Source: Candidatus Korarchaeum sp.
GTDB taxonomy: Archaea; Korarchaeota; Korarchaeia; Korarchaeales; Korarchaeaceae
NCBI GenBank assembly: GCA_020833055.1
Contig: JAJHQZ010000024.1
Span: 1-5,367, forward strand
Length of the DNA: 5,367 nt
Direction: 5' to 3'
Made by a program: the position numbers and the translations under genes. Below, piece after piece: positions 2,773 to 5,367 of the stretch. The notes beneath the pieces are model-generated. The model was not told the origin of the DNA and searched no databases. It saw nothing but the letters and a program-made list of their open reading frames with translations. Positions within the stretch are counted from its first letter, which is position 1; the number at the start of each line of letters is the position of its first letter.

Positions 2773-3711
2773 ATGCCTAGGAGTAGCCTCTTCGGTAGGG
2801 ACCTCTTGACTTGTCAGGATCTGAGTAGGGATGAGATCTGGCTCATATTCGAGACTACTAAGGAGATGAAGCACGCTTACTACAGGGGGGAGAGGCCCAG
2901 GCTCCTGGAGGGGAAGAACCTCGGTATGATATTCGAGGAACCCTCCACTAGGACCAGGGTCTCCTTCGAGGTAGCCATGAGCCAGTTAGGGGGCCATGCC
3001 CTCTACTTGAGGCCAGGGGAGCTCCACTTAGGGGTCAGGGAGACGATAGCTGATACAGCTAGGGTGCTGAGCAGGTACTTGGATGGTATAATGGCTAGAT
3101 TGCTCAAGCACGAGACTCTGGAGGAGTTGGCGAAGTACGCTACGATACCGGTGATAAACGGCCTGACCGATTGGTTCCACCCGGTTCAAGCTCTGACTGA
3201 TGTATACACCATGCTCGAGAAGTTCGGGGACCTCAAGAAGATAAAAGTAGCGTTCTTCGGCGATGCAACGAATGTAGCAAACTCCCTCTTAGTCCTAACA
3301 TCTAGGCTAGGGATGAACTTCACTTTCTGCGGGCCGAAGAAGTACTGGCCGAAGGAGAGAGTGATGAAGATGGTCGAGGAGAACGTAGCAGAGACTGGTG
3401 CGAATATAGAGATAACTGAGGACATAGATAAAGCAATAAAGGATGCTAACGTCGTCTACACAGATCTATGGTGGTGGATAGGGCAGGAGCATGAGGCTGA
3501 GGAGAGGAAAGCAGCTTTCCAGCCATATCAAGTGAACTCGAACTTGATGAAGAGGGCAGCTAAGAACGCAGTCTTCATGCACTGCCTCCCCGCTGCTAGG
3601 GGGATGGAGGTGACTGATGACGTAATAGATGGTCCTTGGAGCATAGTCTGGGATCAAGCTGAGAACAGGCTCCACGTGGAGAAAGCTATATTAGTTCTCC
3701 TCATGGGGTGA
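2773..3711 (+). CDS. Carbamoyltransferase, ornithine/putrescine carbamoyltransferase branch (catabolic ArcB/AguB-like)
   Basis: The product has 312 residues, within the family range. The carbamoyl-phosphate site is clear: STRTR at 58-62, HPVQ at 136-139, and R299 in AENRL. Residues that bind the amino substrate in ornithine enzymes are partly kept: N167 (GDATNV), D231, and HCLP at 270-273. The loop after D231 reads LWWWIGQE instead of the usual xWxSMGQE, so the Ser-Met pair that contacts ornithine is replaced by Trp-Ile. Several segments (LGMIF, GDATNV, GMNF, IPVING) resemble putrescine carbamoyltransferases as I remember them, but the C-terminal helix typical of those enzymes is absent; the chain stops at VLLMG. 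It leads an operon with a transporter and a deiminase, which implies the catabolic direction: carbamoylated amine or amino acid plus phosphate to carbamoyl phosphate. An anabolic ornithine carbamoyltransferase for arginine synthesis is the alternative. Family certain; substrate open. Confidence 0.92.
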   Translation: MPRSSLFGRDLLTCQDLSRDEIWLIFETTKEMKHAYYRGERPRLLEGKNLGMIFEEPSTRTRVSFEVAMSQLGGHALYLRPGELHLGVRETIADTARVLSRYLDGIMARLLKHETLEELAKYATIPVINGLTDWFHPVQALTDVYTMLEKFGDLKKIKVAFFGDATNVANSLLVLTSRLGMNFTFCGPKKYWPKERVMKMVEENVAETGANIEITEDIDKAIKDANVVYTDLWWWIGQEHEAEERKAAFQPYQVNSNLMKRAAKNAVFMHCLPAARGMEVTDDVIDGPWSIVWDQAENRLHVEKAILVLLMG

Positions 3712-3715: not shown

Positions 3716-5095
3716 ATGTCGGTCTCATTCAAGAAGGTCCTTAAGTATTGGGACCTCTTCTTATTCAACGTTTGCGCAATAGTCGTGCTCGATACAGTGG
3801 CTTCATCAGCCGCTATAGGTATGCAGACATTCTTCTGGTGGTTCTTGACCCTCTTCCTCTTCTTCATCCCCTACGGATTGATAACAGCTGAGTTGGGCTC
3901 AGCGTGGCCCAGTGAAGGCGGCATATACGTTTGGGTCAAGGAGGCCTTCGGGGAGAAGTGGGCCGTCATGACTTCCTGGCTCTACTGGGTGAACGTAGCC
4001 ATATGGATGCCCTCAGTGTACGTGCTCTTCAGCGGGACTCTCGCTAAGGTATTCGCACCTGACCTCGGTATATGGGCTCAGACGCTGATAGCGATAGTGA
4101 TGACATGGGTAACCGTAGCTGCGGGTATATTAGAGCTTGGGAAGTCGAAGTGGATCCCTAACTTAGGCGCTATAGTGAAGGCCATAGTACTCTTAGGGGT
4201 AGGCGCGATAGGAGTTTACTGGACTCTTACCAGGGGCTTCGCGAATCCCTTCGCCCCTCAGGACTTGCTCCCCTCTTGGAGCGTAGCCCTAGCCTATCTC
4301 CCAGTGGTAGTTTACAACTACATGGGATTCGAGCTCGCTAGCTCAGCTGGGGAGGAGATGGTTAACCCCCAGAGGGACGTCCCTAGGGCTATAATATTCG
4401 CTGGGGCAGCTATATTCCTCCTCTACGTGATAGGGACCTTCGGCCTCTTGGCGATACTCCCCTTGGATAAGTTGAGCATAGTCACGGGTATAATAGATTC
4501 TGTTATAGAGTTCTCCAAAATATTGGGACCAACTGGAAGCGCTTTAACTTTGGCATTCGGTATAATGATACTGTACACATTCCTAGCCAATATGGTCACT
4601 TGGACGCTGGGCGCTAATAGAGTGCTAGCATCCACAGCGAGCGAGGGCCTCCTCCCCAGATCCCTCGGTCATTTGCACAGCAAGTACCTCTCGCCCGACT
4701 ACGCTTACTACTTGACTGGTATCATAAGCACGCTCCTCCTCATAGGGAATGCAATACCGGCTGAGACAGTAGCTAGTATATTCTGGACGCTCTTCGCACT
4801 CTCCAGCTTGATATTCCTCCTCCCATATCTGCTCCTATTCCCATCCTTCCTGAAATTGAGGTACAAGAGGCCCGAGGTAGCTAGGCCTTACAAACTACCG
4901 GGAGGCATGCCTCTAGCATGGATATCAGCGATATTGGGTGAGGTATTCATAGCTATGGCATGCGTATTCTTCTTCATGCCCCCCGAGGAGATAAAAGATG
5001 TCTTCCTCTATGAGGCTGAGCTCATAGGGGGGACCGCCGCAGTGCTCATAATTGGCTACTTGCTCTACATCTGGAGCAAGAGGTCGAGAGCGTGA
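3716..5095 (+). CDS. APC-superfamily amino acid/polyamine transporter, probable substrate/product antiporter of the deiminase pathway
   Basis: The product has 459 residues and about 12 hydrophobic membrane-spanning segments. APC landmarks are ELGSAWPSEGGIYVWVKEAF (59-78), YNYMGFELASSAGEEMVNPQ (200-219, continuing RDVPRAI), ANRVLASTASEGLLP (300-314) and RPYKLPGG (390-397). The PSEGGIYVWV stretch and overall length fit the branch containing glutamate/4-aminobutyrate and related antiporters. It sits between a carbamoyltransferase and a deiminase, starting four bases after the first gene's stop and overlapping the next start by four. The best inference is exchange of the incoming substrate (arginine or agmatine) for the end product (ornithine or putrescine), the role of ArcD or AguD in bacteria. 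Bacterial ArcD proteins may belong to other families, so the symbol is left blank. A plain amino acid importer is the alternative. Confidence 0.88.
   Translation: MSVSFKKVLKYWDLFLFNVCAIVVLDTVASSAAIGMQTFFWWFLTLFLFFIPYGLITAELGSAWPSEGGIYVWVKEAFGEKWAVMTSWLYWVNVAIWMPSVYVLFSGTLAKVFAPDLGIWAQTLIAIVMTWVTVAAGILELGKSKWIPNLGAIVKAIVLLGVGAIGVYWTLTRGFANPFAPQDLLPSWSVALAYLPVVVYNYMGFELASSAGEEMVNPQRDVPRAIIFAGAAIFLLYVIGTFGLLAILPLDKLSIVTGIIDSVIEFSKILGPTGSALTLAFGIMILYTFLANMVTWTLGANRVLASTASEGLLPRSLGHLHSKYLSPDYAYYLTGIISTLLLIGNAIPAETVASIFWTLFALSSLIFLLPYLLLFPSFLKLRYKRPEVARPYKLPGGMPLAWISAILGEVFIAMACVFFFMPPEEIKDVFLYEAELIGGTAAVLIIGYLLYIWSKRSRA
5080..5084 (+). promoter_or_regulatory. Ribosome binding site of the deiminase gene
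   Basis: GAGGT lies seven bases before the GTG at 5092, inside the last codons of the transporter gene. It supports the GTG as the start rather than a later codon. Confidence 0.45.
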
Positions 5096-5367
5096 GGGCA
5101 TCCCAACCAGCTGAGTGGGATAAGGCCAGAGTGGTCCTCCTCTGCCAGCCTAGTACGGAGACACTATTCGCGATACTGGAGACTAACTCCGCTAACTTCC
5201 TCTACCCATTCGATCTAAAGAAAGCTATCGAGGAGCACAAGAATTATAGGAGGAAACTTGAGGAGTTCGGAGCTAAGGTATATGATGTCAGGGAGATGCT
5301 CATCAATAAGTGCGATGATCCGGGTAACCTCAGGAGATTGAGGGAATTCGCCCTTAATAGTGTGAAG
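5092..5367 (+). CDS. Arginine deiminase-type guanidino hydrolase, N-terminal fragment cut by the window edge
   Basis: Ninety-two codons are visible, open to the right edge. The start is a GTG at 5092 that overlaps the transporter's TGA in a GTGA junction, so the two genes are translationally coupled. The sequence EWDKARVVLLCQPSTETLF matches the first strand of the arginine deiminase/amidinotransferase fold ('G.L..V.LHRPG.E'). It is followed by FLYPFDLKKAIEEHKNYRRK and LEEFGAKVYDVREML, matching the conserved '..A..EH..F...L...GVEV..L..LL' segment of arginine deiminases. It does not resemble the N-terminus of agmatine deiminases, which begins with a 'MPGE...W..WP' pattern. The catalytic Cys, His and acidic residues lie beyond the window, so activity is not proven. 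Likely reaction: arginine to citrulline and ammonia in the cytoplasm, feeding the carbamoyltransferase at 2773. A related amidinotransferase or dihydrolase cannot be excluded. Confidence 0.75.
   Translation, partial: MRASQPAEWDKARVVLLCQPSTETLFAILETNSANFLYPFDLKKAIEEHKNYRRKLEEFGAKVYDVREMLINKCDDPGNLRRLREFALNSVK

Follow-up and report, generated by a model that had tools for sequence, protein, structure and literature searches.

An archaeal sister lineage of putrescine carbamoyltransferase that lacks helix 13 and probably uses putrescine, in a presumed variant of the agmatine operon in Korarchaeum

Putrescine carbamoyltransferase (PTC, EC 2.1.3.6; Enterococcus faecalis structures 4a8h and 3txx in the PDB) is set apart from ornithine carbamoyltransferase (OTC) by a substrate loop in which the signature (Y/W)(G/W)(V/L/I)X replaces XSMG, by the loss of a lysine and by a C-terminal helix (PMC3282769). 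At the site of that lysine, before STRT, PTCs read FxQxSTRT and OTCs FxKxSxRT. Swapping the loop of E. faecalis PTC for VSMG favoured ornithine, and the authors of the PTC structure speculated that PTC and the OTC of Pyrococcus furiosus (1a1s/1pvv) are of hyperthermophilic archaeal ancestry, the C-terminal helix (helix 13) having been added to stabilise the trimer (PMC3282769). Putative proteobacterial PTCs, in Caulobacter, Parvibaculum and Photobacterium, are listed there too. PTC belongs to the aguBDAC agmatine operon, in which carbamoyltransferase, APC transporter and deiminase follow one another (aguBDA). Among archaea, Halobacterium salinarum carries an arginine deiminase (ADI) operon, arcACBD, on pNRC200, and a complete ADI pathway has been ascribed to Candidatus Korarchaeum cryptofilum, an assignment that enters into the debate about where the eukaryotic pathway came from (PMC5052871). 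In the ADI of Mycoplasma arginini, Arg180 and Arg232 bind the carboxylate of arginine (PMC3474736).

The window, i.e., the whole stretch of DNA that we analysed, comprises 5,367 nucleotides and is contig C24 of the 1.39 Mb genome (G000) of Candidatus Korarchaeum sp., a hot-spring archaeon. An open reading frame at 2773-3711 (plus strand) encodes a carbamoyltransferase of 312 residues with the Pfam domains OTCace_N and OTCace. This protein is one of four carbamoyltransferase-family members in the genome, alongside two OTC-like paralogues and one PyrB-like protein; it shares 99% identity with its counterpart in a closed relative of the same genus (G010) and 86% with that of Ca. Methanodesulfokora washburnensis, the nearest named relative found. 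Its stop codon is followed after 4 nt by the gene of a 459-residue APC-family transporter (3716-5095, plus; PF13520), whose stop overlaps by 4 nt the GTG start of an ADI-family deiminase. The window holds the N-terminal 92 codons of the deiminase (5092-5367, plus); the contig end splits the gene, and contig C12 carries the remainder at its end, while intact copies in G010, G012 and L005 are all assigned to PF02274. Judging by the sequence alone, a TATA-like, AT-rich segment some 30 nt before the start codon (ATG) of the carbamoyltransferase gene (2733-2746, plus; identical in G010) is a possible promoter of a leaderless mRNA. Farther upstream, at 249-736, the window contains about 400 bp that are missing from the otherwise 97% identical region of G010, including only the C-terminal half of an oligopeptide ABC-transporter ATPase (starting LDEPTSSLD), which may be a remnant or possibly an assembly artefact.

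A preliminary description of this DNA had drawn attention to an unusual substrate loop, DLWWWIGQE, at 3460-3486. The loop is real (residues D231 to E239), although its correct span lies one codon later, at 3463-3489 (plus), the former span translating as TDLWWWIGQ. In an ungapped alignment to the P. furiosus OTC, W235 and I236 stand on Ser-Met, and D231 and G237 on the OTC Asp and Gly, just as had been described; W233 is kept as well, and no neighbouring position supplies Ser-Met. Thus, where OTCs carry DxxxSMG the window enzyme reads DLWWWIG, and where they carry the lysine of FxKxSxRT, which contacts the substrate carboxylate, it reads FEEPSTRT, with Glu56 (2938-2940, plus) two residues before S58-T-R-T. 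As in PTCs, then, the lysine is absent, though the residue in its place is Glu and not the Gln of the characterised PTC. W234-W235-I236-G237 in turn falls within the PTC loop signature, an indication of the putrescine branch and not of an unknown kind of pocket. The earlier proposal that bulky residues reshape the pocket away from ornithine therefore stands in part: tree, motif and operon agree with a pocket not built for ornithine, but the loop is not outside the known range, since WWIG fits the published PTC consensus (PMC3282769).

Within that range the loop is rare. The 119 carbamoyltransferases that we collected carry SMG in 98 cases, YGLY in 11 and WWW[IV]G in seven. A search with the corresponding DNA pattern matched 5 of 29 genomes of the phylum (a reversed control matched none) and 2 of 162 genomes in the order to which the L006 genome belongs. 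Seven relatives of 54-100% identity share WWW[IV]G, and the three tryptophans are unchanged between the window gene and that of L006 despite 158 synonymous and 68 nonsynonymous codon differences, which argues that the loop is not a product of chance.

To place the enzyme, we built a tree of 60 proteins, including seven WWW enzymes (four from Korarchaeum and one each from Methanodesulfokora, an uncultured archaeon and a spirochaete, L007), six PTCs, 38 OTCs and 8 paralogues with an NTW loop. The seven WWW enzymes grouped with the six PTCs (support 99/98), separate from the OTCs and the NTW-loop paralogues, and this grouping survived removal of the pocket loops and columns and of the C-terminal extension (97/94). 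P. furiosus OTC fell outside it; an OTC of the same type (L088) grouped there with other archaeal OTCs. Monophyly of the WWW group alone was weaker (90/75 and 91/65), the spirochaete protein forming a long branch. This same protein has WWWIG and also Gln at each of the two positions where PTC has it, and so links the two loop types.

Profile scores showed a similar leaning. For the window enzyme the PTC profile TIGR04384 scored 425 bits and the OTC profile TIGR00658 418 bits, and TIGR04384 likewise outscored the OTC profiles for L005, L006 and L007, all four scores lying below the TIGR04384 cut-off of 500 bits, as does that of a Saccharibacteria PTC with a YGLY loop (469.5). The window enzyme passes the TIGR00658 cut-off (417.7 versus 280.85 bits), a threshold that does not discriminate because the characterised PTC passes it too (335 bits). 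For the NTW-loop paralogue, the OTC profile scored far above the PTC profile.

The window enzyme shares with E. faecalis PTC the P-G of the 80s loop and the motifs HCLP, STRT and HPxQ. Unlike PTC, it lacks the C-terminal extension of about 20 residues that forms helix 13, ending LLMG at residue 312, 17-33 residues short of the PTCs collected, and it has Glu and Asn for PTC Gln50 and Gln164 and Gly for Tyr233. P. furiosus OTC is its highest PDB match (58% identity) and has the same fold, the same carbamoyl phosphate motifs and likewise no C-terminal helix, but differs in having S-M-G where the window enzyme has W-I-G and Lys where it has Glu. An AlphaFold2 model (mean pLDDT 94.9, lowest in the 80s loop) matched OTC and PTC chains about equally (Z 45.7 for 1a1s, 43.7 for the best PTC) and does not decide between substrates. 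Overall, we regard the enzyme as a sister lineage of PTC that probably works like PTC; as it lacks helix 13 and falls below the profile cut-off, we do not name it PTC.

The neighbouring genes also resemble those of agmatine operons. Carbamoyltransferase, APC and deiminase genes come in the same order as the ptcA-APC-aguA genes of E. faecalis and L. backii, and the window transporter is 36% identical over 99% of its length to the APC of the L. backii agu operon and 31% identical to that of E. faecalis, yielding no significant match to Halobacterium ArcD. By profile search it is nearest to GadC- and TyrP-type antiporters, so that sequence does not settle what it carries. Of the full agu set, the carbamoyltransferase and exchanger are thus present in order, whereas the deiminase belongs to PF02274 instead of the AguA family (PF04371), which was found in none of the 31 genomes searched, and the carbamate kinase lies elsewhere, on contig C1, adjoining another carbamoyltransferase. 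WWW enzymes and ADI homologues scoring above 100 bits co-occur in the same 4 of 31 genomes, which is not independent evidence given that they are operon neighbours. In Crenarchaeota, one of the AdoMet_dc paralogues is an arginine decarboxylase; each Korarchaeum genome encodes two AdoMet_dc paralogues, and by this parallel Korarchaeum may make agmatine. Separately, two genes that are possibly polyamine-related lie convergent to the operon in three Korarchaeum genomes (L117:12807-14778): one resembles fold-III PLP decarboxylases, and the other, going by its sequence, probably encodes a deoxyhypusine synthase.

The operon deiminase keeps the catalytic Cys/His/Glu/Asp set and the first carboxylate Arg (M. 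arginini R180), but the second (R232) is Leu in the Korarchaeum and Methanodesulfokora proteins. The second Arg is retained in L. reuteri ArcA, P. aeruginosa ADI, other homologues and Halobacterium ArcA; in Halobacterium-type ADIs it follows an insertion, the aligned column showing K/N, and was assigned by eye. Against the arginine deiminase profile TIGR01078 (cut-off 489), the operon deiminase scored 69 bits. Pairwise HMMER alignment had suggested the loss of three carboxylate-side arginines (R185, R243 and R401); the multiple alignment keeps R185 and leaves only Arg243 to Leu, and the R401 site is uninformative, being Met in M. penetrans and lying in a Tyr-type loop in Halobacterium ArcA. 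The Arg-to-Leu change parallels the lost carboxylate contacts in the carbamoyltransferase, as would be expected for an agmatine pathway.

Taken together, these features make it rather probable that the window enzyme is a helix-13-less archaeal PTC-sister that uses putrescine within a modified form of the agmatine operon. As we infer its substrates and direction, it would most likely interconvert N-carbamoylputrescine plus phosphate with putrescine plus carbamoyl phosphate, D231 holding the distal amine, while the place where OTC receives the ornithine carboxylate would be occupied and made repellent by W234-W235-I236 and Glu56. The exchanger would bring agmatine in and carry putrescine out, the ADI-family deiminase, replacing AguA, would yield N-carbamoylputrescine, the carbamoyltransferase would phosphorolyse this product, and ATP would come from the carbamate kinase, whose gene lies outside the operon. 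This reading is favoured by the PTC loop signature, the absent Lys, the tree and profiles, the Gln residues of L007, the agu-like gene order, the AguD-like APC, the Leu at a carboxylate Arg of the deiminase, the presence of carbamate kinase in the genome and the paired AdoMet_dc paralogues, by which agmatine may be made. Against it stand the absence of helix 13, the TIGR04384 score, the Glu, Asn and Gly at PTC Gln50, Gln164 and Tyr233, a deiminase of the ADI family that keeps its other carboxylate Arg, the two arginines in the deiminases of L006 and G058, and a kinase outside the operon.

Part of this contrary evidence comes from relatives. In two archaeal genomes that lie outside Korarchaeota and belong to a single order (the genome of L006, and G058), the WWWVG enzyme has as its neighbour a shorter ADI/DDAH-like deiminase with both carboxylate arginines in place, which leaves some room for ornithine or another amine as substrate. 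The spirochaete copy adjoins an amidohydrolase and a branched-chain-type ABC transporter, with no ADI-family gene seen at its locus; the expectation that the WWW loop would mark a clade linked to deiminase genes thus holds in the archaea but not for this member. Neither the L006 genome nor the L007 genome, whose completeness is not stated, yielded a carbamate kinase. Given these conflicts, the clade may not share one pathway. As further observations, the WWW enzyme in two different archaea (L005:6655-12019 and L006:8982-14635) is linked with a second APC transporter and with metallophosphoesterase-like, nucleotidyltransferase-like and GSAM-like aminotransferase genes, with a saccharopine-dehydrogenase-like gene in addition in L005. 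The G058 locus also carries a PF04371 gene and a further carbamoyltransferase (L173:10550-11548). The latter lies on the same strand ahead of the deiminase and the WWWVG enzyme; its 80s loop is extended, it has the loop YAYYQYSFEAG, and none of the curated specificities clearly suits it.

Could the substrate be a different compound? A Trp-rich loop together with Glu56, unlike both PTC and OTC, the extra linked genes common to the L005 and L006 loci and the setting of the spirochaete copy would suit an enzyme whose substrate is some other amine or ureido compound (e.g., cadaverine, a lysine-type compound or a guanidino-acid derivative). We consider this rather unlikely, as the PTC relationship, the PTC-like Gln of L007 and the agu-like gene order point to putrescine first, and no neighbouring gene names a specific other substrate.

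A catabolic OTC with an altered loop, working in an ordinary ADI pathway (arginine to citrulline to ornithine plus carbamoyl phosphate), is unlikely. The OTC motif GD-x-x-N retains its Asn, the OTC profile cut-off is passed, the neighbouring deiminase is a PF02274 protein with homologues beside the L006 and G058 copies that have both carboxylate arginines, and K. cryptofilum is treated as having the complete pathway (PMC5052871). Yet the enzyme has no S-M and has Glu for Lys, it clusters with the PTCs, VSMG was what favoured ornithine in the E. faecalis enzyme (PMC3282769), the operon deiminase has lost one carboxylate Arg, and the genome encodes two other OTC-like paralogues. The arcACBD operon of Halobacterium salinarum, which also pairs its OTC with an ADI-family deiminase, differs in its DVFVSMG loop, in its dissimilar ArcD and in a deiminase that keeps the second Arg. 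YgeW-type and N-acetylornithine-type carbamoyltransferases were rejected on profile scores, the knotted YgeW type being related at the superfamily level only (79 bits versus a cut-off of 500).

An archaeal PTC-sister without helix 13 is the kind of protein with which the idea of PTC ancestry can be tested, and it would call into question the complete ADI pathway of Ca. K. cryptofilum. More tentatively, the locus may be an agmatine-fermentation operon of a thermophilic archaeon, combining a helix-13-less enzyme of the PTC lineage, an AguD-like exchanger and an ADI-family enzyme turned agmatine deiminase; the carbamoyltransferase would then stand for the archaeal lineage that may have given rise to bacterial PTC.

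The paralogues show motif changes of their own. The carbamoyltransferase directly preceding the carbamate kinase (C1:80513-82399 in G000; L115:9487-11406) has the loop NTWWSMG, with Asn for the OTC Asp231 but S-M-G and Lys retained; this NTW type, which forms its own clade, recurs across Korarchaeum and in Slackia exigua (L067), in which a DDAH/ADI-like gene is nearby. A third, OTC-like paralogue of Korarchaeia (L116:6003-6932; also L103, L105, L107, L108, L109 and L111) retains S-M-G and Lys and reads HCQP for the usually invariant HCLP.
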